A DNA stretch of 64,000 nt, from NCBI GenBank assembly GCA_030280995.1, contig JASXTE010000017.1:26499998-26563997 (forward strand). The letters run 5' to 3'. Made by a program: the position numbers and the translations under genes. The notes under the pieces were generated by a model, which was given only the letters and a program-made list of their open reading frames with translations, was not told the DNA's origin and ran no database searches. Shown here in pieces: positions 10,293 to 60,467 of this stretch. The DNA comes from Hemileia vastatrix. Lineage: Eukaryota; Basidiomycota; Pucciniomycetes; Pucciniales; Zaghouaniaceae. Every line of letters starts with the position of its first letter. The first letter of the stretch is position 1.

Positions 10293-10657
10293 GTGCTTAT
10301 TTAGTGTATTAGCTTAGTTATAAATGCATTTACCCTATTTATATGCACTAATTTCATTAATAACCTCAATCTTGGTGCTTTAATTCACTACCACACTTAA
10401 ATTTGCCTAAATTAGTCAAGGACTTACCCGTGCAAGCACCTGCCAAGGAATGCATGTAGTTACCCCACATCTCACGCCCTTTTTGGGGTTTTTAGATGGT
10501 TTCTCAGTCAATTTTGGTTATTTTTGAATGGAAATTTTACTTAGTATAATGTCACGATTAGCCACAACATTTCTACTGTTAATCCCCCTTATTATTAAGT
10601 AATAATTAGTCTTAATTTTCCCTTTTTAGTCTTTTATTTTAATGTATAGTATGCATA
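10293..10657. other. short flank between element I and element A, no gene seen
   Basis: AT-rich unique-looking DNA without an ORF. It continues on the far side of element A at 37557; both junctions share the ATA duplication. Confidence 0.5.
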
Positions 10658-10698
10658 CACCACAGAAAATTTGGGGGGGTATTGCTAGCAATGCCCCT
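10658..10698 (+). repeat. left terminal inverted repeat of element A
   Basis: Starts CACCACAG, followed by A/T, seven G and a near-perfect palindrome at 10676-10697 centred on TTGCTAGCAA with GGGG/CCCC arms. One arm base differs from the right copy (G at 10693). Confidence 0.9.
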
Positions 10699-11552: not shown

Positions 11553-13980
11553 ATGTCAAGTCTCAGATATGTTGGACAGTTCTCAATAACAATTGATCAA
11601 ATTTATATGAATGTAATTTCAAGATTTCAAAACTCACCAACCCCCACAATTTTACAGCGAGGCCATTCGAATGTTCATATTTTTGGACTATTTGAAGAAA
11701 GAAAACCAACCCTTGTCGGTAATCTTTCTCAAGTGCAGAGTCAGCACATTGGACCACTATTGGGTGACATTGGCTCTGGATCTCACCATTTAAACCAAAG
11801 AAGTGCCTTGAATCCTATGAAGCCTTTCTATTTTCATGCTTACTTGGTTCCAGTTTTTGGTAATCAGTATCAACTTTGGGGATGCCTCTTTTCTTCAAGT
11901 ACACTAATCAGTCTTGCTAAAGAAGCATTTTCTTCTGCTCAAATCGATTTATGTCCAATCCTGAAATACGACTCCACTATCTTTTTTAATATTCCGCATG
12001 TAATTTTTGAAGGCTCTTTCCAAATATCTCACAGTACTCAAGATTGGAAAGCTGATCAACTTATCCGAGGAATCAAAACAGTTCTCAAAACACATCAAAT
12101 TCAAGCAATAAATTTTATGATTGACAATGAACGAATGTTAAAGGAAAAGTTGGATATCATGTGGAGGCACCAGGACAACCATTGGCTTAGAACTGGATTC
12201 GATGACTATAAAGATCAGTTTCCTAACAATCAATTAACGCCTGAAGGAAACGGGTCAATACTTGCTGATGATATGGGTTTGGGAAAGACACTTCAACTCT
12301 TTCTCTTATAAGTGCAACTCAAGGTGAAGCAAGACAATTCCAGGTATCAGAAAATCAAGAAGGTATTAATCGGAGTTCAGCCACACTGATTATATGCCCC
12401 CTGGCAACACTATCGAATCGGATCAATGAAATAAGTGTGCACTTTGAAGATAATGCGCTTCCTTTCAAGGTTCTTTATGGGACAGATTGTCAAAATACTA
12501 ATGTCAATGAGCTACAGGACACTGCTATTGTTTTAACGACCTATGAAACAGCTAGCCCAACGATGTCAAAAAATCAAAGCCAAAAAAAGATACCGGTGAC
12601 TCAAATGCTCTTTTGGTATAGAGTTGTTTTAGATGAAGCTCAGTTAGTGCCCATTTCTATATCTAAAACTTAAAACTTAATTTTTATAATCAATTTTTAT
12701 AAATATTCTTCTAGTTACATTAAAAATCCTTACTCGCAGAGGGCTCAAACAATATTTGACTTGGAATCCCAACACCGACTATGCTTGACTGGAACTCCAC
12801 TTCAGAACAGGCCCACTGACCTTCAAAGTCTCATATTTTTTCTTAGAATCGAAAAGTGGCAAGAAGACTGGTTATGGAAGAATTTCCTTTTTCCAGGTTT
12901 GCAAAAAAGAAAGGCTAATTCTATTAAATCAATCAATCACTTAATGAAAGTCATAAGCCTATGTAGAACAAAGGATGCAATTTTGTCTCTTCCAAAAAAG
13001 ATTCAAAGGGGGATATTGGTTCAATTAGCAGATCCATGGAGGTCTAAACTTGATGTGATTCAAGAAGGATTCACTGAGCGATATGGGCCCTCCAGAAGCA
13101 CTGACTTCCCTTGGGACTCATCTGAGTTTCTAAGAGAGCTGATGATTTTAAGAAAATTCTGCAACCATCCAATCTACGAAAATCTGGATGAAACTCCAAC
13201 TTTTAATTTCACCTGGCAGCATTCCGCAAAGATTTGTCATCTTATAGGCCACTTAAAAAACTTTTTGTCTGGTGAAAGGGGTATAAGTTTTCCAAAAGCT
13301 GTTATATTCTCCAACTTTGCAGACTTTTTGCAGATGTAAGTGATTCTATAATGAATTGTTTTACAAAATTGTGTTGGCTTATTAAAAACAATTTTCTAAT
13401 ATTTCAAAATAGAATAAAAATGGCTTTAGATGACCACAATATTAGGTATACCCAGCTTACGGGTGAACTCAGCAGGACAAAGCAAGACAAAAATATGCAT
13501 GAATTCCATTTTAATAAAAATTGCCAAGTTTTGGTTGGAACGATTCAGGCTGCAGGAGTGGGTATAGATCTCAGGTGTGCTCAAAATGTATATATAATGG
13601 TGAGCTCAATGTCTTTTATTTCATATTAAGAACAAAAATATTAAATTTTTTATATGTTCAATGTTGAAATAGGAGCCAAATTGGAATCCAGCAGTTGAGC
13701 AACAGGCTGTTGATTGGCTGTATAGAATGGGGCAGCAAAATGAAGTAAATGTTTTGAATTATTTTGTACAAGGAAGTATAGAATTCAGCATGTATAAGAT
13801 TCAAAGGAAAAAAATGGAGCTAACAATGTAAGCCAAATTTCATTTCTATAAATTTTAATGATAATAGTAATCATTAAAATTATGTTTTTGTTTTCAAGGC
13901 TACGTGTCCCAAAAAGTGGAAATGAGGAGTATGAGTGTGCAAACCTATTATTAAGGGAGTTTGTCAATCACTCACATTAG
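11553..13980 (+). pseudogene. SNF2-family ATPase (Rad5/HLTF-like), one-base frameshift
   Basis: Five exons (11553-12642, 12715-13335, 13413-13599, 13673-13827, 13899-13980) with GT...AG introns of 71-77 nt encode about 711 residues. Motif I is DDMGLGKT (near 12268). The DEAH box is created by splicing: GATGAAGCTCA joins T at the first intron, giving DEAH then YIKNPYSQRAQ. LTGTPLQNR is at about 12785, FCNHP near 13155 and motif VI (YRMGQQNEV) near 13720. Splice phases agree across all five exons only if one base is missing at about 12296, where LQLFLL runs into a TAA instead of LQTLSLISAT. The lesion is therefore a single-base deletion or a sequencing error. SNF2 proteins remodel chromatin or DNA-protein complexes using ATP. 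No RING finger is visible. Confidence 0.9.
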
Positions 13981-16160: not shown

Positions 16161-19100
16161 ATGCCTCCATTTTTTCATGTATGTCAATGTCAAGATCTTG
16201 GATGTGTCAATAGAAAGTATCAAACTTCTTCTGGGTCCTTTGAAGTTGGTATGGCTTTCAAAAGCTCTAATTCTTATGCAAAACATCAAGAGGAAAGAAA
16301 TAGGAAGGCCCAGATGGTTATTTCTTCCAACAATCCACTTAACATTGGAAGTTCCAGCTCCACAGAAACAGTAAGCTGTATATCTATTGTTTAATGTGAG
16401 AATAAAAGTCTTTATGATGTTTTAATGATTTATTACATAGGGGCAGTTGCTATTGGGGGCAAAAGTATCTTCAACAGTCTCTAGAAACTCAAATCTTGGG
16501 GAACGGTATAGCCAAACAATTATGTGGCAGGCAGCAAAGCTTTCTCTTATTCATCATTTGAGCAAAGAAGGTTGTACTCAATTTTTGGATGAAGAAATTA
16601 AGAAGATCAAACTTCTAGGTGATAGTGGAAGACTGGATTCTGATAGCATTGCCCGCCTGGTCCCACGCTCGATAGATACAGTTTTTAGTCGATTAAAGCT
16701 CAATCAATCATTTTTCACTAAAACATGCTGTCCTAAATGCTTTGCTCTTTACAAGTATAACTCTGAATCTCAACCATCTATACTATGTTGCAATCAACCG
16801 TTTCTTTCATCATCAAAGCGCTATTTAAAAATGTTTTGAGCAGGACAAATTTCAGTTAAATGTGATGAAAGGCTGTATTTGATGGAGGAACATCAAGAAC
16901 ATGTAAAATACTTATCTCTTAAAACATTTCATCACCATTCTTTTATCGACTGGCTTAAGGAAAAGATCAAACTGTTCAAATTTGAGCTTCTGATTGAGAA
17001 GAAAACCCCTGTGGCAGAATGTGTAGAGTGTGATTTGATGAAGGATGTTTGTGATGGTTCAATTTGGAAAAAATTTCCCATAACCACTCCAGCTCTGGAT
17101 AGCAATGATGATGAATATACGATAACTTCAGGAAAATTAATGTTTACTTTATATGTCGACTGGTTTAGGCCTGGTGGCAATAGGATTGGAGGTCATCAGA
17201 AGTCTGTAGGCAATATTATGATGGTGTGTATGAACCTACCTCAAGAAGATAGATACAAAATGGAAAATCTTTTTTTCTATGCTATTATACCTGGACCAAC
17301 AGAACCCACAAGTGAACAGCTTAATCACCTTCTAAAACCACTGGTTAATGATCTACAAACTCTATGGGATGGTATATTGATTGAAAAGACACATCTTTAT
17401 CCACGAGGCCGGAAATTAAGAGTTGCATTGTTTTCTTTGATAGGTGACATTCCTGCAATACGAAAATTGGCTGGCTTTTCAAGTCACTCTGCAAAAATGT
17501 TCTGCTCTTTCTGTAATATCTATAAAGATGAAATTAGTGAAAAGAATGTGGGAAATTTTTCATTACGGAATCATGAGGATCATATGTGCTGGGCAACAAA
17601 GTGGAAAAATTCTAAGTCACATTGGGAACGTGTATCAATTGTTCAAAATCATGGGGTACGATGAAGTGAGCTGAATAACCTTGAATATTGGCGTCCAACT
17701 GAATATTGCTCAATTGATGTTATGCATTCACATATGCTTGGCAACATAAAAGATCACAGTCTAAGCTATTTTCAAATCCAAAATGCAGCAAAAGATCTAG
17801 AAAGAAAGCTGGAAAAGGATAAAAATTGGCATTTAAGAGAAGAAGAAGATGATTTCTTTTCTGATACTTCACTGCACAAACATTTGAAAAAACGTAGAAG
17901 TAGCTTAAGCACCACGAATAATGATGATGATGATACAGGACACACGAGACAGCACAAGTGGCAAAGACGTACAAGTTCAAGACAGTCATCAAGTCATCAT
18001 GGACTAGATAATGAAGGATTGGGAACAAATCAATCAAGAAGCCAGAGTAGGTCATCCAGCTCCAAATTTATTCCTCCATATAGCGATTTGGCCTCAATAC
18101 AGTCTCACAGCAGTGAAAGTAGGAATTCATTGTATAACTTAAGGCAAAGAAGCATTAGAATATCACAGAGTGAAGGATCTCACTCATCAAATGAGACAGC
18201 TAGAGATGAAGAAAATAAAAGGAAAGGTAAGGAGAAAGAAAATGAAGGTAGTAGTAATCCACGAATCACAGCAGCAGAGCTACAGGTTGTATGGAAGATT
18301 ATTGATCAAGTAAGAAGACCTTCCTGGCTAAAATGAGTTCCAAAATCAGTAGGATCTAAAAAGGCAGTATCCCTCAAGGCAGCAGAATGGCACATGCTGT
18401 ATACTCTCTACTTCCCTTTGTCACTTATACCCCTTTGGTTTGAAAAATTTAAAGAATCTGAATCTTCAGCTTCCTCAGCTGATAAACCAAGAGAATATTA
18501 TCTTCTCAAGTCACTTGTAACATTATGCTCAATCACCAATTTTTTGACATTAAAAAATATACAGACTAATGAGCTTAAAGATCTAGATCAATTTCTGTTA
18601 GAGTATCGTGAGTGCCTTGAAGAGGGTTGGAAGAATATTAATGCAAAGCCAAATCTGCATATCACTCAACATTATCCTGAAATGATAAAGAGTCTTGGTC
18701 CACCATCAGGTACAGCTACTTGGTCTGGAGAGCGGGTGAATCATATATTATCTGAAATTCCAAACAATCACCATCCACGTATGTAATGTTTGTAAGCAAT
18801 GATTTAAAAACTCAGCTGTGCTAATTTATTAATATTTACCACAGGAGAGATACCGCTAACAATGCTCAAACATTGGTATCGGAAGTCTAGGGTATTAGAT
18901 CTTGGTGAAGCTGAAGATAATGATCAATGTGAGACTAAAAAAATCCATATTGATCTCGATAAACAAAACAAATGGATCCATCTAAGTATGGCATTATTTA
19001 CTAAATGGGTAAGGGCACGAATGGGAAAAGAAACTTCAAGACGGGCTTTGACACCATTGGAGAAAAGTGGGGATTGGGTAGTTGAAAATGTAGCAAGCAT

Positions 19101-21625: not shown

Positions 21626-21865
21626 TAACTTAGGTATAACGGTGATCTTCTGTGTAATATAGCTATCTTATATTGAATTTTATGTATTCTGTTTTTTTTC
21701 AAAGCAGCTTGGTAAATGTTATAAAGTGATATTGAGAGAGAGTAACATTTTATTTAAGAAAAACAAATAATGTATGAGATATAAAAATGTATTTTCAACA
21801 AATTGATGGTCCATACCTCTTTATGTCACATTTATGTATCCATATTAATTTCAATCGAATTTAAT

Positions 21866-22321
21866 GTTGACCAATACATAGTGAATACACGCTATACCAC
21901 TTATACTTGCCAGGCATTGCTACCATTAAGTATGCCAGTATCAAAAATTAATTTCGATCGAAATTAATGAGCATGATAATCATGAATTTCTGGAGTCAAC
22001 TGCTTATTTTTATGCATGGTGCCTTTCCAACATTAATTTCGATCAAAATTACTTTTGATACTGGCATATTGCATGGTGTCTATTCCTGGAAAGTGTAAGT
22101 GGCATAGTGTGTATTCATTACGTATTGGTCAACATTAATTTCAATAGATTATAATATTGACATTTTCATATTGAACCCAAACCAGCAAACGACCCAAAAA
22201 ATTCTTCATAAAACTGCTCATTAATTTCGATCGAAATTAGTGAGCACCATATACATATTGAATGGTAGTTATATGTGGTGTGTGTAAGTTGTAAAGCTTG
22301 TGTTCAATGTTTATTGGTCAA
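21866..22321 (+). repeat. left arm of an approximately 456-bp imperfect inverted repeat
   Basis: The sequence from GTTGACCAATACATAGTGAA to TTTATTGGTCAAC is repeated in reverse complement at 22880-23336. Non-palindrome text matches too (for example TGCCAGTATCAAAA and its complement TTTTGATACTGGCA). The arm carries four to five of the palindromes. Confidence 0.8.
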
Positions 22322-22879
22322 CATTAATTTTGATTGAAATTAATATTAATGTGTAAATGATATTTACATGCTCAATATGCATTGTAATGTGTTTACTTAA
22401 GAATAGAGTGCCCTACTTTTCATCTTACATAATAATGCTTGGTGGCATGTCAAATTCAATTTTTATTAAAATTAATGTTGACATGTTACCATGCATAACA
22501 GTAAGCAACTGACTGAATAAATTGATGATAATCATGAACCTTAATTTCGATCGAAATTAATGTTGCCAAGTGCAGATTGAAAAAAAGCTATGCCACTTAC
22601 ACTAGCCAGGCATATCTACTATTTATTATGTATTGGTCAACATTAATTTTTATAGAAATTAATATGGATATGTAAATTTTATATTTACCCTCAACATGTA
22701 TAGTAAATTTCAATACTTAAAAATACTTGCCGTCCTTTACATGTCATGCAAAAAAGCATTATATCATTTCAACATTAATTTTGATCAAAATTAATGTTGG
22801 CATGCCATTATGCATTGAAACAACTAACTGACTGAAAAAGTTCATGATCAAAATGCTCATTAATTTTGATCAAAATTAA

Positions 22880-23336
22880 TGTTGACCAATACATATTGAA
22901 TATAAGTAATCTCTGCTTACTCAGACCAGATATAACTACCATTCAATATGTATATGGTCAGAATTAATTTCGATCAAAATTAATGGGAAGTTTTATGAAG
23001 AATCTTCTGGGTTGTTTTCTGGCTTGGGTTCAATATGCAAATGTCAACATTAAATTCAATTGAAATTAATGTTGACCAATACATAATGAATACACACTAT
23101 GCCACTTACACTTTCCAGGCATATATACATGAAATATGCCAGTATCAAAAGTAATTTCGATCGAAATTAATGTTGGCAAGGCACCATGCATAAAAATAAG
23201 CAGTTGACTCCAGAAATTCATGATTATCATGCTCATTAATTTCGATCGAAATTAATTTTTGATACTGGCATATTTAATGGTAGCTATGCCTGGCAAGTGT
23301 AAGTGGAATAGCATGTATTCATTATGTATTAGTCAA
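22880..23336 (-). repeat. right arm of the approximately 456-bp inverted repeat
   Basis: Reverse-complement partner of 21866-22321. Between the arms (22322-22879) lie two direct copies of a further approximately 319-bp unit (starting near 22318 and 22637), so the array is a higher-order repeat. Confidence 0.8.
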
Positions 23337-23781
23337 CATTAATTTCGATTGAAATTAATATGGACATGGACTATGCATAAAATTCCTATAAGTATAGGTA
23401 AGCTAAGCAGTTAGATAAACTGGTTTGATCAAGTACACCATATAAAAATTGATGTTTTAATGCCTTGGTTAATTTCGATCAAAATTAATTTTAAGCCATG
23501 CATGTTGAATTTTATCTATGTCTGTGTAGTCCATGTGAAATGGCTTGTATTCAATATGCAGGGGTCTATATTAATTTCGATCGAAATTATGAGGTTCATT
23601 GCCTCATAAATTTGATGGTTTCTGTCAGTGTTTCATGCATGGTGCCATCTGATACTTGTTGATTCCTATCAAAATTAATTTCAACACCAATATATTGAAT
23701 ACAAACCATGGCACTTACAGTACTTGGTCATAGCTAAAATTCAATATGCTAGTCTCAAAATTAATTTCGATAGAAATTAAT

Positions 23782-24813
23782 CAGGATCCATGAAGTTTAT
23801 CAATAGTGTATGAGTTAAGTTTCAAGTCATATGTTTCATCATTTTCTTGCACACATTTCTAGGTTATCTCAACAATTTTTTTCAAGTTTTATTATATTAA
23901 TCAAAACTGTGGTAAGTTGTGAAAAATTAGCTAATCCAAATCTCAAATTGAATATTAATATTTTAATAATTTTGAATGTTGCTTAAGGTATTTAATTGGG
24001 TGATTCATAATAATATTTTATCAACTTAGTAGTCCTATAACTTTTGAAAAGTAACAATTTTGGTATAGTTAGGGACAACAATGCAATATCTTGTGCAGAC
24101 TAAGATATATTGCAAAATAAAACTATTCAATTTTTTTTTCCCTTAGTTGTATCCAAGTTTATCAAAGGTTTGGTCACGGTGCCCACACCCTAGCCTGACA
24201 CTCCTCCTGTCACTTAAAAAACAAATTCTTATCTTAAATTCTAATGTTACCAATTTTATATTTATAATTCATTTCTTGTTTGATGAGGCATATCAGTATA
24301 TATGTGAATCTCGCATTGTCATCTGAAAGTAAATTTAACAAATATTCATAAAGGATTATCCTTTTTTTTCATATAATATACTAATTAAGTGTATCTCCAT
24401 TGTTTAGGAGTAAATTCTAATTTAAAAAATTTTGTATTTACCCGTGGCAATTTGAATATGGGATATAAATATGTTATTATTTGTTTTTCACACTAAAAGT
24501 CCCCAAAGAATTACTAGTATTTTCTGTTAGCTACATCAAATTTCGCTTCAATATAAACAGATTGTGATTTAGCATGTTACTCAGTTTACCCCACTATGAA
24601 TAATACATGTTAAAAAAAGCTCAAATAATATAAAATCCCCCTCTTTATGTTTTCTGTTTCTTTCATCCTCACTTTAATTTTAATCTTATTCAATTTTTTA
24701 TGCTATTAAATTATCAACTTCAATTTTCTAGAATAGAGTTTCTTATAATTATTCATCATATTACATCATAATTTTTTGATATCAAATACTTTTTTTAATA
24801 TTCATTAATCAAT
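23782..24813. other. AT-rich spacer, nothing recognised
   Basis: No convincing ORF, repeat or structured element. The promoter of the downstream gene probably lies here. Confidence 0.45.
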
Positions 24814-28041: not shown

Positions 28042-29249
28042 TTATATATCTAGATTTTTTAGATTTGTCTTAACATTAGATAAATAATACTTTGCTGATT
28101 CTATTTCTTCCTCTATTAAGTCATCTCTTTTCAAAAAATCTCTTAAAGCACTAATCAAATATTCTAAACTAAATTTTTCTTTTTTAATTTCTAAGTATTC
28201 TAAAATATCAATATCAAAAACATTAAGCTTTTCTATAGCATGAAAAAGTCTAGTGCTGATTTGAATAGAAGAACCTATCCTAGTGAAGCCAGGAATTTCA
28301 TGACATCTTGAGGTAAAATGCCTTAGTTGATTGGCAGGCCATAATGTCACTTTTATTCCATTAGTTGCTTCAAAGTTGATTTTACTTCAAATTTTGGGAA
28401 ACATAAGTTCTCCACCTATTTGTCGTGGTTGGGTCTTATCATACTTCATATGAATTGTGTTTTTTTCTGTATCTTTAGGAAAAAATATTCCTAAAGTATA
28501 CTCACTTGAATCCTTATCGAGATGAACCTCATTAGAGAACCCATTACCATTCCCTCCAGATGTCCAAGTTAAATTACTAGCAAACGGTACACCCTCTTCT
28601 TCACTAGAAACTTTTGAAAATCCAGGAATACCAAGTTTTGCGCAAAGATTAGTTGCCTCATTTTACTTTACATATGATATTTTTTTAAAAAAATATTCAA
28701 AGTACATTGCAATCCTCTTCATTCATTTTTTATATTCATCCGTTTTTACAATATCATCAGTGTATTCATCTGCAAGGAAAAGCATTCAAAAATTCAGTAT
28801 TTAAATTAAAAAAAGTGATACTTACGAATATATAAAGATTTCTTTCTATCTAAAATAAAGCCACCACCAAACATTTTTCCAAAACCACCAGCTCTTCGAT
28901 GATAACCATTATTTTTAATTTCATGTTCGCAGTAAGAAAGATCCTTAATGCATTGCACTGTAGCTTCTAACATATCTAGTTCTTTGAGCTCATGAATTTC
29001 AAAAGTCTGCACAAGAACATTAGGTATTAAGACACCTTTTGGTTTATAAATACTACATCCAGGAAAAAAATTGTAATAATTATTGCAATCTGTCATATTA
29101 TTTGCATAAGATTGTGCATAGAAATGTGGCTTCTTCCCGTTTGTATCCATTCCAAGAGCGTTTACAAGTTTCATTCCAGTAGCAATGTCTTTCGCCCACC
29201 TATTGTTAGAGTTCTTCCCTGGCCGTTTTTTTTTCAAATCGTTACTCAT
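28042..29249 (-). pseudogene. TET/JBP-like 2OG-Fe(II) dioxygenase, three in-frame stops
   Basis: Minus-strand exon 1 is 29249-28826, the intron is 28825-28770 (56 nt, GTAAGT...TTGCAG) and exon 2 is 28769-28042. They join in one frame of 384 codons. The C-terminal half has the double-stranded beta-helix signature: the iron ligand pair in VHLDKD (near 28525), GGELMFP (near 28405), a distal His in LRHFT (near 28330) and an Arg in TRIGSSIQ (near 28275), the expected 2-oxoglutarate-binding position. The Gly-rich GGFGKMFGGGF lies at the end of exon 1. Enzymes of this family oxidise 5-methylcytosine or related bases in DNA, and basidiomycete DNA transposons are known to carry such genes. Stops at 28723 (TGA), 28663 (TAA) and 28387 (TGA) disable it. 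Start at MSND chosen; an upstream ATG at 29303 is possible. Confidence 0.75.
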
Positions 29250-30994
29250 TGATGGTTCAATCCTAAGAGAATTCAATTTTGATTTAAAATAGAAAAAAAT
29301 CAAAAATTAGAAAATAGTAACATAATTTCAATTATCAGTCAATGATACCTTTAACTTTATCATATCTTCAATATTAGAAATACAAAAGTTAGCATATTTA
29401 CATATTAGTAAATTTATATACTTTTTCTTTATTTCAAATATTAAGAAAGCGTTTCAAAGGTATACTTTATTAAATTATACATATAAAGAGTATAGCTTTA
29501 TCCTGTATGCATTTAGCAAGTACGAGATTTGGCTCTACACTTAATATTAATAATATAATGAAAGTATAACTCCAATACACTAGTAATATTAAAAAATTTA
29601 CGGAATTATGATATCCACATATATAAAATGAAAAATCTTGCTCTGATCAATATATTGACTTAGAAAGTTATACTTCAATAAATTATTAATTTTTAAATTG
29701 TAGCATTGTCCTGTATGCTTTCAGCAAGTATGAGACTTTGAAACAACTTAAAAATCAATAAATTAAAGGTAAAGTAAAAACAATCTAATTATTATTATGA
29801 AAATCAAAACATTATCCTGTATGCTTTCAGCAAGTACGAGATGATGTTTTACTTTTCATATTAATAATATAATGGTTGAGAAAGTATTAAAGAAATATAG
29901 AAAAATGATAAGCAAAACATGAACTTACATGTCTATAAAATCTTCTTCCATTTGTAGCTGATTGATCAAAATTAATTATAAAGTTTATTTTATAATCACT
30001 GTTTTAAAAAATAAATGGTTAGATAAATAAATTGAACATTTTTGATAAGGAATAAAGAAAAGTAAATTGACAAACAAATAAAAAAACTTTAAGTTAACTG
30101 AAAAAGAATTATTTTATAATGAATCAAAAGGGTACAGTAAAAGATACCATAAAAATAAATTCAGAATTAGAATCATTAGATTAACTTGTCAAAAGTGTAA
30201 AAAAGTGTAACAAACCAAAATGATATGAAATGCAATAGCAAGAAAAATTTGCTTACCGGTAATCAGATAAGGTCAAGAAAATAGTACCAATAATTCAAAA
30301 TGATAAAGCAAAAATATGATTGATAATTTTTGAAAAAGGTAAGTGAGAAAGAGAAGGAAAAATAAATTGGGTGGCAAACAGATGTATATATCATGAATTT
30401 TCACTGATCACATTTTCAAAAAAATGCAGCTCTCCAAGTCATATGATAAACTTCATCTAAATTCCAAGAATGATGTTTCCAAGGCACTGTACACAGCATG
30501 ATCATTTTTTCCTATGCATATACTAATTCCAGCTAGAATTTACTTGGCTGCATGTTGTACAGATGCACATTTGTGGAACACTGAATTTCACATCTAAAAA
30601 AAATTGACGCCACATAATTCTAGCTACCATGTTTCACGTAGCTAAAAAACATACACTCATCACATTTAAATTTACATTGCGCCAAAATTAATTCATTTTT
30701 GAATTTTTTTAAAGGGAACTATAATGTGCACCACCTGTTTCTAAAATATGAACCTCCGCACCATATTAAATTGGGAGACTTTTAATTATGCAATTTTTTT
30801 GCCGTGACCTTTTTCCTGATCTTACTTGGTTCAAAATATTGAAACATGACCAATGTTGATGAAAGAAACATTTGATTTTGTTTCTATGTGTAACAATGGA
30901 AGGCTGTTTCTTACTGGCTGAAGAGTGTTGCATATTTTATTTGAACACATTTTTATTTTTTTATGTATTTTATTTAAAAAATTTACTTTTTATT
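29250..30994. other. AT-rich spacer with three direct repeats
   Basis: No gene is seen. Three copies of a 29-bp sequence close to TCCTGTATGCTTTCAGCAAG plus TACGAGA lie at 29500-29528, 29708-29737 and 29814-29842, upstream of the dioxygenase start. Confidence 0.6.
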
Positions 30995-31676
30995 GCAGCC
31001 AGATTTATACTGGCTGCTTTTTAGAAACCTTAATTTATGACCCAAGCCTTTGAAATTGGCTTGGGTCCCTTACATTGCAATTTAGTACTTCCAGCCAGGT
31101 TTCCCCTGGCTGGAAGTGTCTCTTTCAAGCAATCGAAGTCGCTAAAAGCAACTTCGATTGCTTGCTGTAATGTTTGCCACCCTCCCAGCTAATTTACTAG
31201 GCTGGGAGGTGGCCAAAGCAGTGTGCAACGCGCGTTGCTGCTGCAAGTAACGCGCGTTGCACAATCGCTACCATATCTCATGCAGCTGATATCAATTCAG
31301 CTGCATGAGATATGCGCAGCACATGCAACGCGCATTACTTGCAGCAGCGATGCGTGTTGCATGTGCTGCATGCAGTGCATTGCACAGCCAGTTTTTTTCT
31401 GGCTGTGCAATGCACACAGAGAAACCAAAGTCCCTGCAAGGGACTTTGGTCTCTAAAATGGAAGCGACTTTCCCTACCAGGTGCAATCTGGTGGGAAAGT
31501 GAGAGAAACGTTAGACCGAAGTTGTTTGAAAGCAACTTCGGTCTTAAAAACATTAAAAATCATAAAAAAAAATGAGAAATGTAGAAAAAAAAAAAATTAA
31601 AAATTAAAATGTGAGTATAAGAAAAAAAATAAGTTCTAGTGATACCAAAAATCCAAGCCAATTTCATTTGGCTTGG
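30995..31676. repeat. cluster of 13 consecutive, mutually different hairpins
   Basis: Perfect or near-perfect inverted repeats follow each other: 30995-31017 (8-bp stem), 31039-31067 (10), 31087-31117 (13), 31126-31164 (14), about 31173-31219 (14 with bulges), 31222-31263 (15), 31272-31314 (18), 31316-31369 (20, one G:T), 31375-31415 (17, loop of seven T), 31418-31454 (12 plus 4), 31467-31500 (13, one bulge), 31513-31544 (12) and 31653-31676 (10). The stems are GC-rich islands in very AT-rich DNA. Their sequences mostly differ, so this is not a tandem repeat. Short ORFs in the cluster are by-products of the palindromes. Confidence 0.95.
31222..31369. repeat. nested palindrome: two hairpins that are reverse complements flank a third
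   Basis: The hairpins at 31222-31263 and 31316-31369 are near reverse complements of each other including their loops (GCTGCTGCAAGT versus ACTTGCAGCAGC). The 18-bp hairpin 31272-31314 is at the centre. The approximately 148-bp block can thus fold as one long arm or as three separate hairpins. Confidence 0.9.
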
Positions 31677-33832
31677 TTATTTAATAATTATTTTTTAATA
31701 CATTAAATTTAAAATTCAAACACCATAAAATGTATGAATTTTTTTTATATGAATATTATAAATTTAATCTACCTCTTTCTCATAATTATATTTATAATTT
31801 TGTTTTTTTAATTTTTGACATTTAAGTTTATTTTTTGGAAATACAAAATTAAATTTTCAACTAAATTTTTTAGTAAGGTAAAATAAATTATAAATTTGAC
31901 ATTTTGTAATTGAATAATGAAAAAAATTTTAAATTTATTTAAAAAATATTTTTGTTAGAAGAATACAAATATTTTAAGGGTAGAAATATGGTGCAAATTG
32001 TAAGTAAAAAAAATTATATTTTTTTTTGTGAGGGGTTATTTCTATTTTTAAAAATATTTTTTAAAAACATTCATTAAATACTGAATTAAATTACTTTGAA
32101 ACTCAAATTTTTTGTAAAATAATTAAAAATGAAATAATAATATTGTTGTATTTGATATAAAATTTGAATTGGTAATATTAATGTCTCTTTAAGTAAATTT
32201 GAAAATCATTTAAAAAGACCATGTTGATAAGTACTTCATTTTTGATATACAATGGTTATATATGTATCTTATATATATTTCTTGAGTGTTATTTTTATAT
32301 ACATTCAATAAAATTTGTAATATAAAATGCCATTTAATCATTAATTATTGTTCATTTTAGTTATAACAACTTCATATTTAATACCAGCCACTAGTATTTA
32401 CTTTTTAATTTAAAACTCCAATATAATATGAGAGTATCCTTATTTTGTCTGTATGTAATGAACAACAATAACAGACCATAAATGAGTGGGTAATTAATTA
32501 CAATAAATAGTTGAAGAATAACCTATAAGAAATGATAAGTTTATCAAAAAGAGTACATTAAAAAAATATACTTTTGAATTTTTTTTGATATAATTTGGGT
32601 AGTTAAATGAAAATTTAAATTATCAGACATCAAAATGGATAAAATCTAAAAGTGGTGTTTATATAATAAGCCTCATATAAAAAAAAGGATAAAAAATCTA
32701 CTATGTAACTAAATTATTAAATATTAAGGTATTATTAAAATTATTGAAAAACTTATTTTACAGTTATAATGAAATCTAAATGTGAAAATAATGGTGGGAT
32801 AATAGTAAGACTATGTGGAAACACTTTAATTTATACATACTTTCAACTATGTTCAGATAAAAAAATTGTTAAAATTGTATAATAACATCTAGTTAATAGT
32901 GATGCAATTTTATTTAGATCAAGAATAAATTTTTCTGAGGAAAAACTAATTAAATTGAGATATGGCCATCTCCTTTCAAGAGATAGAATAATAATAAAAA
33001 TTTAAAAAATAATAATAAGTATTCTTAATCACCATTTTTGAAAAGTCTCTAGTAAAATTCATTATAATATATCATTCATTTATTACATTATATGGAGTTT
33101 CATCTTGAAGTAGTGATGTGCAGCTTTGAACTTATGTTATGAAAAACAAAAAAGTTAAAAAATATATAGTTATACTAATGAAAAATTAAAAAATAAAAAT
33201 ACTATTATAAATTAAAAAAATAAAACTACATAAATTTTATTCTGCTCTAATGATGGAAGGGTACTATGTATGAATTTCCACATGTTAAATCCAAACCTGC
33301 TTTAAGGCTAGTTTACAGGTAGAGCTATTAAGTTTCCTTAAATTCTAAAAATAACTTATGCATTTTACTAATTATTTTTTTCTTGTTTTCTTTCCAAAGT
33401 TGTTAGAGTTGCTTAATTAATACTGTTATCTTGATTGTAAGATATATAATTTTTTTTGAATACATGATTTATTGTTTCAAAAATTATATTATAAATTTAA
33501 ATTATTTATTTCATTTTCTAAAGCTTCATTGTCAAAGACACAACTCCATTTTCTATTACTTAACAAATATATAAAATGTGATAGTAAAATTTGAAGAATT
33601 TTCTTTTTGAGAGGGTCAAACTCTATTGTGAAGATTTTTATCTAGAAATTCTTGTACTCTAAAACCAAATAATTTTCTCCCTTAAGTAAGCCATTTCAAA
33701 AATATGAGAATATAAACAAGAATATTAACTTATCTTATTTTTATTTTCTTTACTGAAAGTTTTAGTTCAATCCCTTTTTTTATATGACATTAGTATAAAA
33801 ACATGGTTAAATGCTACTATATAATTAATCTT

Positions 33833-33835
<3 letters not shown>

Positions 33836-33863
<28 letters not shown>
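33836..33863. repeat. (TA)n microsatellite
   Basis: Fourteen TA units. Confidence 0.9.
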
Positions 33864-35578
33864 AGAAATATTTAGAAGGTCATCCTTTTTTATTTACTTG
33901 AATAAATGGCTCAATTATAATACCCAACACTTATTAATGTTTCCCAAACTCAATAACAAATTTCTCATATGAAATATTAGCTTCTAATATAAGAAGTTTA
34001 TCTATAGATGATATTCAACATGTGATTTTACTTTTTAGATTCAGCTAAAATTAAACAAAAGGAGAAATCATGCATATGTGTATAAATGGTCACCATATGT
34101 TACTTAGAGGATTGTGAAATTCACTCATCAGAATGGTTTAAGTATTAAAATAAATTGAGGTCATTATTTTCTAGTATTTGAAACTAATTAGGAAATTATT
34201 CTAAAAATATATTTGAATGTGTATCATGTTTATTAAGTTGGAAATATGATTTTTGAAAATTGTGAGTTTCTTATGAGATACCAAGCTTTAGTTTACATTG
34301 TTTCAAGTAGAATAGAATTTTAGTATTAGAAATTGAAAGCAATGTACCATTATCAGATTTTAACTGTGTTTTACTTATAGAATGATTACATAACATTAAA
34401 CATTATTTAAATCAAAAAGGTTTAAAAGATATTTAGAATTTTACCAAATTTCACCATTTATTAATCTTTTATTTGAAAACAAACTATGATGTACACTCAC
34501 TAGAAATAAGCAATCACAATTTTAACATAATTTATCAATCCAAAAATAATGAGTCAATTAACATGAAAATATATATTATTTCAAAACCAATTCTCTAGAT
34601 TTAAAATATGATGCTTTAATGAAAAATTATTACAAAACTTTAATGCAATGAACTCTCTTAAAAAATTCAAAAATAGAATATCAAAACAAGTAATTTCTGC
34701 AAAAAAAACTACTAACTATTGTAGATAAAGCATAAAAATAAGTCATATTTTTTAAAAAAATGATCTAACAAGATTTATTTTTGTTAAAAAAATCAAAACA
34801 TTGTTAAGTTTGCTTGTTATAATAATGTTAAAATCCACTAAACATTATCTAAAGGTGGTAAAATATGTTAAAAATATGTTGAATTTTGTGAGATAAAAAT
34901 CAACAATTTTGTATCATTTCCTGTTGTGCTATGACTTTATTCCACCCTTTTTATCTGATTCTTCCAGTATTACTTTGCTATGATCACTAGTTTTCAAGTT
35001 AAAATTTACAAATGTTCATTATACTTGATAATATGAAAAATAACTCAAACTTTTATAACTACAAAATAAGATTTTGTAACTCCTTCTTTCAATCAATATT
35101 TGAAGAAATTTTTAGTTTATTTGAGTAATGATTTTAAGAATAACAAAAAATTTGAAATTCACAAGGAATTATTTCCAGAGACTATAATTATTTACTTGTG
35201 TAATGCATGAGCTACTTATCAATGATGTAAAACATCAGAAAAGTAAGTTATAGTTTTAAATCTACAGATTATACTGTTTCTGGTATATATATCTTCAATA
35301 AATCTTTTAAACTTATCTTAGCCTACATACCACACAATAGAAAATCATTATATTAAAAAAGGAAAAAATTCTATGATAATATCATAAAGAATGATAACCA
35401 TGGATTAATATTCCATAAAAATGGTTAATAAAATTTTAAGAACCTAAATCAGTATTCTTTCATCAAAATATATCCTTTTTGTCTTTGTAATTTATTCCAA
35501 ACAAATTTTTTGAAAGTTGAATCTATATATCTAATGCCAAAACCACTATTAAGTTCCCTCTTAGACTTTTTAAGAAAT

Positions 35579-35611
<33 letters not shown>

Positions 35612-35612
35612 T
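35579..35612. repeat. (TA)n microsatellite with one interruption
   Basis: TA run interrupted by a single G. Confidence 0.9.
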
Positions 35613-37318
35613 ATTTATCAAAAATTGAAATAAAGAATAAAAACATAATTTTATTTACCTTTAATTATTTAAATATAGAGTATTTTCAGAATGCATTGTT
35701 GTTACTTGTGAAGGTTAGAAGATTTGAAGTTGGATTTATGAGTTTTTAGAAGGGCAAATATTGTAAAATTCTTTCATAAATATTTATTTCATAGTTTCAA
35801 ATGTTGAAATCTACAAACTAATGGGATTTAAAATTATATTGAGATTTAAAATCTGTTTTCTACTCAAGTAAAATAAAATAAAATGATGATATCAAAATTG
35901 AAATTAAGTTTAAACTTTTAATATGCTCTATCTTCAATTTTATTGATAGTGCATCAAAAATTTAATAATATTTTTTTCCTTCATCACTTTTTACATAAAA
36001 GATAGTTTTATCATTTTATGAATTAAAGATTGCTTATATAAATTTAACATCTATGTCAACTATTTATGACTATTAATCTATATAATAAATTTTTTAGAAG
36101 AAAAAATAACATCAGTATATACTGACTTTGAAATTATTCAATTTAAAATAGTTTACAGGTAGATAATGAAGGGTGATTTCATTTTTGAATATGAATTATA
36201 GAAGTCTTATTTTGTCAATTTTAATTCTTTTTGAGCTCAAATGTATCCACCGCAACTTATGTAAGAATAAAAATTATTTTTATTGAAATTTACATGAGAA
36301 AGTATGCCTATTATTAAAAATCAAACTTGCTCTAATAGTGTTTTTCAATCATTATTTCGATTCATAACAATAAAAAACATTTCAATTTGCTGATGTTTTA
36401 GTTTTTGATATCCCCAAGTTTATATCTCAGGTGTACTATTCACAAAATTATTAAAAATATAATTTTCGAAATACATGATAAACTTGAAAGTGAGGGGGCA
36501 TTAAATTTTTAAAAATGAATTCTAAATTCAGGATGGATAGTATTTTTTCTATTTTCACAAATGAACAATTTTTTGTTTCAATTAATCCAGAAAGAAAATT
36601 TTGTTGTAAGCATATTATATTATATTTATTATGATTTTAAATACTATATTTTCAAGATTTGTGTTTAATATTTCCTGTGAAAGTTAATGTTAATGTGAAT
36701 TTAAAGTAAGCTTGAAGAAATTTAATCAATAGGCATATTGGATATTTAAAATAATATTTTGCTCCAATCTTGAATCATCCTGGGCATAAAAATATCCCAA
36801 ATAAGGTTTTTGTGGGTCAATTTCGATTTAAGTAGGATTAAGTGAGGTTTAATAAAGGACAGATAAAAGGCTAAATTCATTACTAGTGACTTTTTCCTCA
36901 AAATAGTTATAAAATATGTATCATTCTGGAATCAAGCTTCAATAAAGTTGAATTGAAACAGAGATAATTTCTAGCAGCACAACACCATATTTACAAAGGT
37001 GTAAAATACCTCAAATATTACTCATAATATAGGAAGGCAAGGAATCTACAAAATTCACATTTCAAACGAGGATTTATATTTTAAATTTGAAATTGAGAAA
37101 TGGAATATTATTTTCCAATTTAAATATCTTTTAGTCATTTTACCAAAAGTTTTCAGTAATCAGATTGAATTTTGATGGTATTTTGTTGTAGATTAATCAT
37201 TTTGATGAGCCATTTACTCAAAATTACTGGTTTCGTTTCTAATATTCCATGTGAAATTCATTACGAATCTTTTAGAAAGTGAATAGTTGACATATTAGAT
37301 ATGCAAAAGCTTATGTTA

Positions 37319-37515: not shown

Positions 37516-37556
37516 AGGGGTATTGCTAGCAATACCCCCCCATTTTTTCTGTGGTG
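37516..37556 (-). repeat. right terminal inverted repeat of element A
   Basis: Inverted copy of the left end, finishing CTGTGGTG. It contains a perfect 22-bp palindrome at 37517-37538 (GGGG, TATTGCTAGCAATA, CCCC). The adjacent inner sequence is GAGTTCAAG, matching the phased repeats further in. Confidence 0.9.
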
Positions 37557-40129
37557 ATATACTCTCTTTTTTACTTATTCTTTATTTTTGATGGATTATT
37601 CCTATTACTACAGGATTTTGGCAGGTGATATCATTCTAATTATAATAATTGTCACTATTTTTGTTTCTGGACATGTCTATTAGCTGGAATGAGGCGTCAT
37701 CAACTGGGTATAGAGCTGGTAAATCAAGGGGGTTATTGGGGAAGTAATTGTGTATAAAAGGAGGGGGTTTTTGGTCTTGTTTTCTACATTATTTATCATT
37801 ACAATTAAACATATAAACAATAAAATTACAATACATATCAATAGTACTTATAAAGTCTTTAAATAGTATCTGAATTTATTAAATCTATTTTCTACCAACT
37901 ATAAGATTGTAAGCCATATATAATTGGTGAAATTAAAATTACTGAGACCCTTATATTAAGTTTTATTTTAATACTTATTGGATTTGTTCTACAGTATTCA
38001 TATAGGAACATTATCATCTTCTAGAAAACTGACCATTCAAGCTAGTTCAGATCTTTGTACTTGACCTTAGCCCAGTGATAAGTACAAATTAAGAATCAAA
38101 TTTAGAAAATATTATATTCAAGATAGTTTTAAGTTGATTATATATTATTATGATATTATTTCTTTCTATATAACAGATTTAAAAACTATGTAAAAATCAA
38201 TTTTATACAAATATATTTTATAAAATAGATATCTTCTCTTCTGCTTAGCTTTGAAGTACTTCAAAAAAACATTATTTTTGCCTTAGGTACAAATTATATA
38301 GAGTATTCAAAGCATCATATTAATTTTTTTGACTTATACTTGTAATTTGAAGGGAAGCCTCACAGGATAGAATTGGTCATTTTGTAAAAAAAAATAAGTA
38401 AATATCTTTTAAATCAATATATATTTTTATAAAAAGTCAATTTTTAATATTTATATTTTGTTATAAATCTGTTATGAAGATTTGAAATTTTGCTATTTAA
38501 ATTAATTTTAATAACAATATACTCAGTCCAGTATTGCTTTGTGATAAGGCTGATTTCAAGAAAATTTTTAAATTCTTCTGTTTAAATAAAATATCAAAGG
38601 GATTGTTTTTCATACACTTAGAAATTGAATAGAAACATCATATTAGATCTACCAATCAGCATGAATATCATAATTTCAATAAATCATTGATAAATCTTGA
38701 ACCCATATATTAAATTTTACAATTGTGTGTAAGTGTTCAGTTGTGAATTACTCCTATCAAAACTTTTATTCTAATGATTAAAAAAGCGTACCTCCAATGT
38801 TTCATTTAATTTATTTTTCAACACCATAGAATTAAAATATTTTTTATTTTCATTTAAAACATAGAATAATATTATTTTTAATTAAAAGATGATAGCCTTT
38901 CCAGCTGCTTTTTAACATGGGTATAATCTAAAGTACCTATTGTATCTTTTTTAAAAAATGAATATCATATAATAATTTTTCAATTTGAAACTGATAGAAT
39001 TATGAAAAAATACCACTTTTACCTGTTTAACTCAGTTCTTGAACAATAATACAATCAAAATATTTAGCTGAAGCTCATTTTTCAAAATGAAAACACTTTT
39101 CCAATAATATGGTTCTTATTCCCATGTTGACACTGAAATTATCCCACAATACAGCATTGAAGCAAAATCAAGCCCTAAAATTAAAGTTTAAATAAATTTA
39201 TACTTTTTTTTTATATTATCTTTAAATTTTAACATCTAAATTGAATTTTGGTCATTCATATGGAAAATTAACTAAGTAGTGATAAATTATTTCAACTCAT
39301 GAGATTACTCTACCAAATAACAATATTTACATGGAATTTTGATGAAATACATCATGAATAGTTCAAGAATATCATATATGTATTTCATTAAATAAATTTA
39401 TATTGCAAAAATTCTTAGTAGTTGAATATTCAATAGAAGAAAAAAGAGCAAAAAGATATTTCCTCTTAATTTTAATCATCATCTTGAATACAAAAATGTA
39501 GAAAGCTGGATTAAAATTCTCTGGTATCAGAATTACACTTCTTTCTAGACATATAATTAAAAAATTTATCAATTATTAGTGCTTAGTGTAACGAAGCTAT
39601 TAGAGGACTCCATTGAAACAGAATTCAGGAAAAGATATTTCTATCTTTTATTTTTTTTTAATTATGAGTCTTTTCACAGTATTCTGGAATAAAAACTTGA
39701 GAATTTTGATGAATCAATATGTTTCTTAAATAAATCCATTGAATTGAAAATAATTATATTTCATAATCAGAAAAAATAAAAATACAAAAAAAAATCAGGT
39801 AATATGGTTTAAATTAAAAAATAAAAGCTTCAAATTCTTGGTTGAAAGGAGTAATAAATAATAAGAACCACTGATCTTATTTTATATTTTTTCAAAAAAA
39901 AATTGAGAAAAATCATTAGAGAGGCTAAAAGTGATGTTTTTGAAATAAATAGTATAATTTACAGTCTTTTTAATGATCAAGTGAGATTCAATTTGAAAAT
40001 GAAAATGAGTTTTATTAAAAACATTCTGTGAATGGATCAGATTATTAATCTTCCCTTGTTATTATTTCTATAAATTATTCATTTAACTTTTACTACTATT
40101 CCAGAACTGACTCATCCATTCTTGGTTAA
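37557..40129. other. AT-rich DNA between element A and the orphan terminus, no gene seen
   Basis: Starts with the ATA duplication. A possible promoter (GTGTATAAAAGGAGGGGG) lies near 37753. No coding-like ORF. Much of it may be interior of element B, whose right end is at 40236. Confidence 0.45.
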
Positions 40130-40236
40130 GAGCTCAAGATGAGTTCAAAGTAAAGTTCAGTCTGAATCCAGTCTGAGTTTCATCTGACTTCAAGTTGGGG
40201 ACTTGCTAGCAAGTCCCCCCCAAATATTGTGTGGTG
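40130..40236 (-). repeat. right terminus of a second related transposon (element B)
   Basis: Read from 40236 on the complement it begins CACCACACAATATTTGGGGG and contains a perfect palindrome at 40197-40218 (GGGG, ACTTGCTAGCAAGT, CCCC). Subterminal GAGCTCAA (40130), GAGTTCAA (40141), GAGTTTC (40175) and GACTTCAAG (40186) repeat 11 bp apart in pairs, as in element A. No matching left end was found in the window, so the element is truncated or extends outside it. Confidence 0.75.
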
Positions 40237-49014: not shown

Positions 49015-50358
49015 TGGCATTCCCAATCTGAGTAGGCTACTTAGGTGAAAATTTGATTGGACCTTGGTTGGAAGAAAATCATGGTGTTAGCGGGTGTTAA
49101 TTTGGTTGAAGGGAGTTAACTGGATTTTTTTTGGGTGAATTTATAGTAATTTTTTGAAGGATTTATGGTGATTTTTTTGGACAATTAATGGTGTTTTGGA
49201 ATGGATATATGTTGGTATTCCTATTGTTATTTGATGGTTTCATGGATTGGGTATTGGTTTTACTGGATTTTCTAGGGCTCTCTTGGTATTTTTGGTCGAT
49301 GCAGTGTGCTCATGGAGTAGCCATTTTTTCCGGTTCGCTCTGGTGATTTTCCGGTGCAAAAGAGAAGTCATTGTGGCAAAGTTGGTAAATGTGGCAAAGT
49401 TTGGTCAATGGTGCAAAAAGTCTGGGCACTGTGGAAAAGTTTGGTCACTGCAGAAAAGTCTGGGCACTGTGGGAAAGTTTGGTCACTGTAGAAAAGTCTG
49501 ATCACCAGTGCAAAGTTTGGTCACTGCAGAAAAGTCTGGGCACTGTGGCAAAGTTTGGTCACTGTAGAAAAGTCTGATCACCAGTGCAAAGTTTGGTCAC
49601 TGTGCCAAAATTTTGGCTATTGTGGCAAAATTTGGTTAGAAAGTTATTATGCTTACTAGATCAATAGTTTATCGTAGATCATATGCATGTAGGGTATTGT
49701 TGGAAAGGTCTGGAGGAGGAGAATCATATGGGGAGGGGAGAATTTTAGTCATATACATGTTTTATGTCTTTTAGTTTCGATAATAAGTGTTTTTTTGATA
49801 ATCAACAATATTTAACATATAACAACAATTATAATAAAAAATATCAACATATAGGGTACCATTTGATAGCTCTCATCCTTGGTGACTCAAATTTATTTCT
49901 TTTCTTATAAAATTTATAAAATAAAAATATAATAAAGAACACTCTTTAATTTTGGTGGGAAACTGGGTAAATCTGGGGCAGACCTTAAATAAGGCACCTT
50001 TGAACAGATCATCCCAAGGGTGGTTTCTGGGGTACTTTACTGTACTTTTCAGTCTCTGGGGCAAGTGTTGCGGCTTTTTCTAAGTATTTTCTGTGACTTG
50101 TATCAGTGTAATCTTGTATTAGGTATTTGTTTTGGGGGTGTAATCATTTATTGCACTTATTTTTTATTCCATATTATAGGTTTCCAACACTTTCAAAGTC
50201 TTTCTCTCAGATTTTCACCTTATCCAACTCTTCAAGCAGATCTTCAAGCTTAGTTAATTGAATCTTACATTTACTTAGAGGGACAGGGATTTCTTTTTGT
50301 TTTTGCAACTCCCTTTGATTCTGCCTGCAGCAAGATGACTGTAGGAGTCTACTCTACA
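49015..50358 (+). repeat. 5' LTR of element III (about 1344 bp)
   Basis: Begins TGGCATTCCCAATCTGAG and ends GGAGTCTACTCTACA. It is matched by 59179-60467. An internal tandem array at 49369-49636 repeats AAAGTTTGGTCACTG and AAAAGTCTGGGCACTGTGG units. Confidence 0.88.
49369..49636 (+). repeat. tandem array inside the 5' LTR
   Basis: About nine units of 20-27 bp alternate GCAAAGTTTGGTCACTG with GAAAAGTCTGGGCACTG. The 3' LTR copy (59556-59747) has fewer units. Confidence 0.8.
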
Positions 50359-59178: not shown

Positions 59179-60467
59179 TGGCATTCCGAATCTGGGTAGG
59201 CTAATTAGGTGAAAATTTGATTGGACCTTGGTTGGAAGAAAATCATGGTGTTAGCAGGTGTTAATTTGGTTGAAGGGAGTTAACTGGATTTTTTTTGGGT
59301 GGATTTATGGTGATTTTTTGGAGGATTTATGGTGATTTTTTTGGAGGATTTATTGTGTTTTTGGAATGGATATATGTTTGTATTCCTATTGTTATTTGAT
59401 GGCTTCATGGATTGGGTATTGGTTTTACTGGATTTTCCAGGGCTCTCTTGGTATTTTTGGTGGATGCAGTGTGCTCATGGAGTAGCCATTTTTTTCCAGT
59501 GCGCTCCGGTGCACTCCAGCTTGCTCCAGTGTTTTTCCAGTGCAAAAGTGAAGTCACTGTGGCAAAGTTAATCATTGTGGCAAAGTTTTGTCATTGGTGC
59601 AAAAAGTCTGGGAACTGTGGCAAAGTTTTGTCACTGCAGAAAAGTCTGGGCACTGTGGCAAAGTTTAGTCACTGTAGAAAAGTCTGATCACCAGTGCATA
59701 GTTTGGTCACTGTGCCAAAAGTTTGGCTATTGTGGCAAAATTTGGTTAGAAAGTTATTATGCTTACTAGATCAATAGTTTATCGTAGATCATATGCATGT
59801 AGGGTATTGTTGGAAAGGTCTGGAGGAGGAGAATTATATGGGGAGGGGAGAATCTTACTTTTCTATATGTTTTATTTCTTTTAGTTTTGATAATAAGTGT
59901 CTTTTTGATAATTAACAATATTTAACATATAACAACAATTATAATAAAAAATATCAACATATAGGGTACCATTGGATAGCTCTCATCCTTGGTGACACAA
60001 ATTTATTTCTTTTCTTATAAAATTTATAAAATAAAAATATAATAAAGAACACTCTTTAGTTTTGGTGGGAAACCGGGAAAATCTGGGGCAGACCTTAAAT
60101 AAGGCACCTTTGAACAAATCATCCCAAGGGTAGTTTCTGGGGTACTTTACTGTACTTTTCAGTCTCTGGGGCAAGTGTTGCGGCTTGTTCTAAGTATTTT
60201 CTGTGACTTGTATCAGTGTAATCTGGTATTAGGTATTTGTTTTGGGGGTGTAATCATTTAATGCACTTATTTTTTTTCTATAATATAGGTTTCCAACACT
60301 TTCAAAGTCTTTCTCTCGTATTTTCAACTTATCCAACTCTTCAAGCAGATCTTAAAGCTTAGTTAATTGAATCTTAAGTTTACTTAGAGGGACAGGGATT
60401 TCTTTTTGTTTTTCCAACTCCCTTGGATTCTGCCTGTAGCAAGGTGACTGAAGGAGTCTACTCTACA
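59179..60467 (+). repeat. 3' LTR of element III (about 1289 bp)
   Basis: Starts TGGCATTCCGAATCTGGG after the polypurine tract and ends GGAGTCTACTCTACA, followed by the ACG duplication. Confidence 0.88.

Follow-up and report, generated by a model that had tools for sequence, protein, structure and literature searches.

Small inversions in chloroplast genomes concern a short loop between perfect arms, which occurs in both orientations, and they usually affect single hairpins in organelle spacers. The double-hairpin or repetitive hairpin-forming elements of mitochondria are compact, GC-rich hairpins found in non-coding DNA as dispersed copies of one unit, and the subterminal repeat arrays of CACTA transposons, which are also non-coding, are bound by a TnpA-like protein. 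On the side of mutation, published work reports that template switching between inverted repeats leads to spacer inversion and arm homogenisation in yeast (PMC8604942), and that it makes and keeps hairpins in RNA genes, loop inversion included (PMC8794818). On the side of mobile elements, the main text of Kojima (2025; PMC12730594) presents the TET+ EnSpm transposons of rust fungi, which have CAC..GTG termini, 3-bp duplications, an EnSpm/Plavaka-like transposase and a Tet/JBP gene.

The hairpin cluster described here lies in a 64,000-nucleotide stretch of DNA from Hemileia vastatrix (hereafter “the window”, meaning the whole stretch analysed). Like the chloroplast inversions, it has short loops between perfect arms that are found in both orientations; unlike them, it is an array in a nuclear transposon and not a single hairpin of an organelle spacer. 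It resembles the mitochondrial double-hairpin elements in consisting of compact GC-rich hairpins in non-coding DNA, but its hairpins differ from one another, occupy a fixed place in a nuclear transposon and move with it. As in the CACTA subterminal arrays, the repeats belong to non-coding stretches of a CACTA transposon; in contrast to these, they stand 5.9 kb from the nearer end, and the stems are without one common motif. With the template-switch (quasipalindrome) mutations (PMC8794818; PMC8604942) it shares exact loop inversion with the stem kept, perfect stems and recurrent parallel events, whereas many hairpins per array and about 1,000 young copies can be compared here. The transposon type and the mutation type are known, and what is new is their combination as a thousand-copy hairpin array that flips and shuffles; no report of a hairpin array in an EnSpm/CACTA element was found in the open-licence literature searched. 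Our reading, to which we assign a probability of roughly two in three, sees the cluster as an array of non-coding hairpins belonging to a giant EnSpm transposon that carries a TET gene and was amplified recently; the form of the array would arise at the DNA level, with fold-back template switching making, mending and flipping the hairpins.

The transposon that carries the array

The cluster is internal DNA of a CACTA/EnSpm transposon of 26,899 bp (10658-37556), which bears out the placement of the hairpin series inside a DNA transposon by the first-pass annotation, a reading of the sequence that preceded this work; the cluster is thus not a separate element. The same terminal repeat, bordered by unrelated flanks, was found in 8/8 other copies at the left end and in 8/8 at the right end. 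Both ends consist of CACCACAGAAAATTTGGGGGGGTATTGCTAGCAATACCCC with small differences, inverted to each other and flanked by ATA: the left terminal inverted repeat (10658-10697, plus strand) reads CACCACAGAAAATTTGGGGGGGTATTGCTAGCAAT(A/G)CCCC, and the right one (37517-37556, minus strand) contains the internal palindrome GGGGTATTGCTAGCAATACCCC. The 5'-CAC...GTG-3' termini of EnSpm/CACTA elements are present as CACCACAG...CTGTGGTG in the window and in 8/8 other copies. The target-site duplication ATA of the window (10655-10657 and 37557-37559) has its counterpart in matching 3-bp duplications of the eight other copies, the series for the nine copies checked being ATA, TTT, TGT, AAT, CCT, AAT, TAT, ATT and TAT.

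Several open pieces on the plus strand (11553-13626) match an SNF2-type helicase (PF00176 and PF00271), and consecutive open pieces at 16840-18786, on the same strand, correspond to a tnp2/Transposase_21 transposase (PF02992, E 4.6e-15 on 16879-17661). Each of these transposase pieces ends in a stop in the window copy, and their translations contain CSFC (C(2)C), HITQH (H(3)H) and GER. A Tet-like 2OG-Fe(II) dioxygenase region lies in pieces on the minus strand at 28042-29306, an extent taken from the open frames, while the PF20515 match (E 3.7e-11) covers 28390-28662 only, i.e., one 91-aa piece. The CAC/GTG ends, the 3-bp duplications and the tnp2-type transposase together assign the element to the EnSpm/CACTA superfamily. 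With a Tet/JBP dioxygenase gene inside it, the transposon, judged from its motifs and domain matches, agrees with the TET+ EnSpm elements that PMC12730594 describes from rust fungi, sharing their termini, 3-bp duplications, C(2)C/H(3)H transposase and Tet/JBP gene. Unlike the elements presented there, it is 27 kb long, matches an SNF2 helicase, and carries two palindrome arrays as well as the hairpin cluster; the main text of that paper nowhere uses the words “hairpin”, “SNF2” or “subterminal”. Upstream of the Tet-like gene stand three repeats containing CCTGTATGCWTTYAGCAAGTAYGAGA (29473-29874), which are putative binding sites.

The right end of the transposon is 5.9 kb away from the hairpin cluster and the left end 20.3 kb, a position that makes a transposition end signal unlikely. 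The array stands at the edge of 4.5 kb of transposon without one CpG (31658-36157), where nine 500-base bins contain 0 CpG and about 50 are expected from base content by our estimate. Around the transposon, Gypsy-type retrotransposon sequence occupies both window ends, as recognized by Pfam matches on the right and by similarity to the right side on the left; a minisatellite with a 19/38-bp unit (GTCACTGTGGCAAAGTTTG) occurs inside this flanking sequence at 49367-49636 and 59552-59743. The right end of a related EnSpm family is situated at 40197-40236 (GGGGACTTGCTAGCAAGTCCCC palindrome, CACCACACAATATTTGGGG end), and nested pieces with similar ends occur in the cluster of one copy of our transposon (L074). 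A transposase protein search of the genome (747.6 Mb, 791 contigs) returned 93 scored matches, indicating many other EnSpm-like copies, none of which was tied to a sister family.

Anatomy and occurrence of the hairpin array

The count of thirteen hairpins in about 680 bp made at first reading was confirmed: thirteen short, mostly GC-rich hairpins occupy 30995-31676 (682 bp). In the majority sequence of 21 copies (the window and 20 others), 11 non-overlapping perfect stems of 8-18 bp enclose loops of 3-12 nt, and two imperfect hairpins, number 8 (31316-31369) and number 11 (31467-31500), bring the total to 13. From left to right, hairpins 1 (30995-31017; stem 8, loop 7), 2 (31039-31067; stem 10, loop 9) and 3 (31087-31117; stem 13, with the 5-nt loop TTTCC) are followed by hairpin 4 (31126-31164), whose stem of 18 around the loop AAA is perfect in the 21-copy majority and imperfect in the window copy, and by hairpin 5 (31173-31217; perfect core stem 9, loop 11). 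Hairpins 6 (31222-31263; perfect stem 15, loop 12), 7 (31272-31314; stem 18, loop 7) and 8 (arms of 20, 95% complementary) constitute a hypervariable palindromic core (31218-31374), whose modules are inverted, lost or gained among copies. On its right stand hairpins 9 (31375-31415; stem 17, loop T7), 10 (31424-31450; stem 12, loop GCA), 11 (13 pairs with a one-base bulge), 12 (31513-31544; perfect stem 12, loop 8) and 13 (31653-31676; stem 9, loop 6).

That the stems are not copies of one another holds in the main, although some motifs recur in the window copy: CAGCCAG/CTGGCTG is common to the stems of hairpins 1, 3 and 9, CCAAGCC to hairpins 2 and 13, GCAACGCGC to hairpins 6 and 8, and CAACTTCG to hairpins 4 and 12. 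The picture of a back-to-back row is likewise right as regards the close packing of the series, but the arms of hairpins 6 and 8 (31224-31261 and 31324-31361) pair with each other over 38 nt at 89%, so that the array is nested and not a plain row. The exclusion of a tandem repeat and of a normal gene stands, since a tandem-repeat scan of the cluster lists only the A-rich stretch 31546-31593, and a long coding gene is rejected by 0 ORFs of at least 150 aa, the open frames of up to 88 aa being of chance size.

The window copy contains 11 perfect stems that are 8 bp or longer, whereas 300 dinucleotide shuffles yield 0.27 on average and never more than 3, and the folding suggested at first reading gave -361.8 kcal/mol for the segment as RNA vs. 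-184.1 (sd 5.5) in 20 shuffles (z -32); stem counts and folding together rule out a chance origin. Eighteen stems in the 64-kb window reach 40% GC or more, and the cluster accounts for 11 of them. So strong a fold would suit a functional RNA, i.e., a plus-strand hairpin chain acting as a Dicer substrate, as a silencing decoy or as a structural element of a transcript made close to the dioxygenase gene, whose stems are kept by selection. Against this, an Rfam search of the cluster gave no match near threshold (the six best hits reach 26-29 bits, the thresholds being 56-90), and a known RNA family was rejected on this basis.

With the cluster as query, 40/40 scored places were full-length at 97-100% identity, the window included (40 of 1,522 candidates were scored). 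As such a sample is biased by likeness, further copies were taken via the right end of the element. This second sample comprised 38 copies; the cluster position was fetched for 36 of them, the other two being already in the first 20. Two of the 36 were uninformative, L045 being shifted by about 850 bases and L064 being unrelated sequence. Absence from other copies was named at first reading as a refutation; the cluster was present in 34/34 informative copies and altered in two of them: in L048 the cluster part 31322-31640 is tandemly repeated (positions 1-951 of that copy), and L074 contains small nested transposon pieces. Of the genome search for the stems that had been proposed, exact counts were obtained for two hairpins: hairpin 3 with any 5-nt loop occurs at 992 exact places and hairpin 9 with any 7-nt loop at 997, the backward-read control giving 0 for both, which puts the family at about 1,000 cluster-bearing copies or fragments. 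The listed places of both hairpins are mainly on large contigs. An assembly artefact or a nested series of MITE insertions, also considered at first reading, can practically be dismissed: nothing was found in its favour for the array, L074 alone holding small nested CACTA pieces, while the 992 and 997 places with controls of 0 and the occurrence of the cluster at the same place in 34/34 informative copies contradict it.

Inversions, module exchange and point changes among copies

Variation was followed in an alignment of 53 copies (the window, 20 picked by cluster likeness and 32 of the 36 picked by the right end). In hairpins 3, 4 and 10, loops become exact reverse complements, with the length kept and the stem unchanged: TTTCC turns into GGAAA in 3/53 aligned copies, AAA into TTT in 3/53 and GCA into TGC in 1/53. 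Genome-wide, the loop of hairpin 3 is flipped in 102 of the 992 places. The three aligned flips of hairpin 3 stand in differing core structures, and two of these copies share flank states. No inversion was seen among the 53 aligned copies in the loops of hairpins 1, 2, 5, 7, 9, 12 and 13; loops of up to 5 nt were flipped in 7/159 cases vs. 0/371 for the longer loops of these seven hairpins, with p=0.0002 on the assumption of independent copies, hairpins 6, 8 and 11 being unscored and one copy lacking hairpin 7. Among 82 listed places of hairpin 9 with letters, 4 are of the flipped type (three A7, one of which mirrors another listed place, and one AAAGAAA); as orientation here rests on one base, a few per cent of hairpin 9 loops may be flipped, and longer loops are thus not immune.

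Between hairpins 5 and 9, the core is a mosaic of palindromic modules, with TGCATGCA and GCGCGC as short palindromes, and its length, 95-242 bp, takes 16 values among the 53 copies. For another set, core length was implied by how far apart hairpins 3 and 9 lie in the coordinates. At 67 hairpin-3 places (contigs C2, C11, C18 and C19, the rows of C26 being left out), hairpin 9 lies within 3 kb downstream in 55 among the matches listed, a proximity at variance with the dispersed two-hairpin unit of double-hairpin elements; for the remaining 12 there is no hairpin-9 match among the matches listed. The 55 places give 18 values, 106-322 bp in 54 of them and 1,618 in one, and the length of the window's core, 151, is found in 7/55. 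A 20-bp core segment reads either GCAGCAGCAATGCAGGCTGC or its complement, the two orientations being equally frequent (6:6) in the 12 of 53 copies that carry it, and a core octamer reads GCACATGC or GCATGTGC at 23:23, with 7/53 copies unscored. A 22-bp core segment is present in 34 copies, absent in 18 and unscored in one.

The equal use of both orientations by the 20-bp module, beside palindromes of the TGCATGCA type, is what a dedicated site-specific inversion system could produce, i.e., a shufflon-like system that acts on the palindromic core, possibly via a transposon protein. We consider this highly improbable, since the ORF pieces scanned (7 and 10, some overlapping, in a transposon with 47 open frames of at least 70 aa) contain no site-specific recombinase domain, and loops of different hairpins also flip, for which no common site is needed.

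Point changes bear on the RNA reading introduced above. Over 30002-32998, substitution among copies amounts to 6.5-9.2% at CpG, 1.05-1.64% at other G/C sites and 0.32-0.57% at A/T sites. The change at CpG, about 6-9 times that of other G/C sites, is such as cytosine methylation would give. Divergence is 1.75% in 30995-31545 vs. 0.95-1.12% in three flanking stretches, the excess in the cluster going along with its richness in CpG. At A/T sites, too, change is slightly more frequent in the cluster (0.57% vs. 0.32-0.40%), partly because of loop flips. By site, 19 C-to-T and 17 G-to-A changes were counted. A count of G-U against A-C of 55:22 was dropped as a sign of RNA strand bias, shared changes having been counted many times in it.

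In favour of selection on an RNA, the cores, however scrambled, retain their folding in 53/53 copies (69-80% of bases paired, z from -2.9 to -16.3), the majority sequence of 21 copies has a perfect hairpin 4 where the window copy does not, and non-Watson-Crick positions common to many copies, few and partly linked, are by our reading more often G-U on the plus than on the minus strand. Nevertheless, non-CpG G/C substitution in the cluster (1.05%) is like that of the flanks (1.05-1.64%), and the stems show no visible protection from change in these mostly dead copies. Paired stem changes number 7 vs. 3.4 expected if independent, in a young family, and all 7 fall at hypermutable CpG, with no covariation other than these CpG doubles; moreover, the inversion of loops and core takes no account of the RNA sequence. 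We consider a functional RNA unlikely. Of the check proposed by the first-pass annotation, conservation of the cluster held in 34/34 informative copies, while paired changes, confined to CpG, give no clear support in so young a family; among the roles it listed, a fold-back structure at the DNA level is backed by the loop and module inversions, and a structured RNA or small-RNA precursor gets no clear support.

Probable fold-back template switching and the meaning of the array

In the mechanism that we favour, a strand that becomes single, during replication or during gap repair after excision, would let the inverted repeats fold back, and a polymerase jumping to the opposite arm as template would invert a short loop while keeping the stem. 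Such a switch could also perfect a stem, or make a new hairpin in one event. In the core, the same switching, together with deletion and duplication between repeats (TGCATGCA, GCGCGC), would leave modules inverted, dropped or added. Gap repair may be the occasion, as a long cut-and-paste element copied in this way would expose ample single-stranded DNA, and an array formed in this manner would need no selected function. Template switching is favoured by the exact inversion of loops with stems kept, the flips of hairpin 3 in differing core structures, the core segments found in both orientations, the spread of core lengths and the preference for short loops in the aligned sample. On the other side, arm-homogenising paired changes are few and all at CpG, longer loops are not exempt (hairpin 9, 4/82 listed), and the other palindrome array of the transposon (21839-23790) shows no inversion in 8/8 copies, all chosen for likeness to the window's cluster.

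This second array, AT-rich and of the TTAATTTCGATCGAAATTAA type, is collinear in the same 8/8 copies, one of them with a 17-bp deletion. Its palindromes contain CpG and recur many times, and in the window its 506-bp arms are mutually inverted at 90%. One arm of the array matches at 95% in copy L081, as if converted.

Recombination, homologous or ectopic, could give the same products by acting between arms and between copies of the element, with no polymerase switching involved. Many near-identical copies are available for it, and core states are found among them with flanking markers in each of the four possible combinations; as markers have recombined among copies, crossing-over in the arms or exchange between copies would be feasible. 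However, with 12-18 bp the arms offer little length for homologous crossing-over, and the flips concentrate in the shortest-loop hairpins of the aligned sample, so we hold recombination to be a doubtful, though not negligible, source of the inversions.

Whether through template switching or otherwise, a benefit of the array to the transposon is putative at most, and nothing here shows one. A distinctly speculative proposal, which we think improbable, is that the array is a dedicated, recombination-active and ever-renewed hairpin cassette, its structure kept while its sequence changes. Such a moving source of double-stranded RNA or of single-stranded DNA structure might aid escape from sequence-based, methylation-linked silencing, alongside the Tet-like dioxygenase and the SNF2 remodeller.

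For the family, the hairpin array is an added structural feature of a large and very numerous TET-carrying EnSpm transposon, one on which the main text of PMC12730594 is silent. Beyond it, RNA genes, microRNAs and organelle repeats all raise the question of how perfect hairpins originate and are kept perfect. The roughly 1,000 young copies of the array within one genome form a natural record in which flipped loops and inverted modules can be counted, so that the influence of stem length, loop length and sequence on template switching becomes directly measurable.
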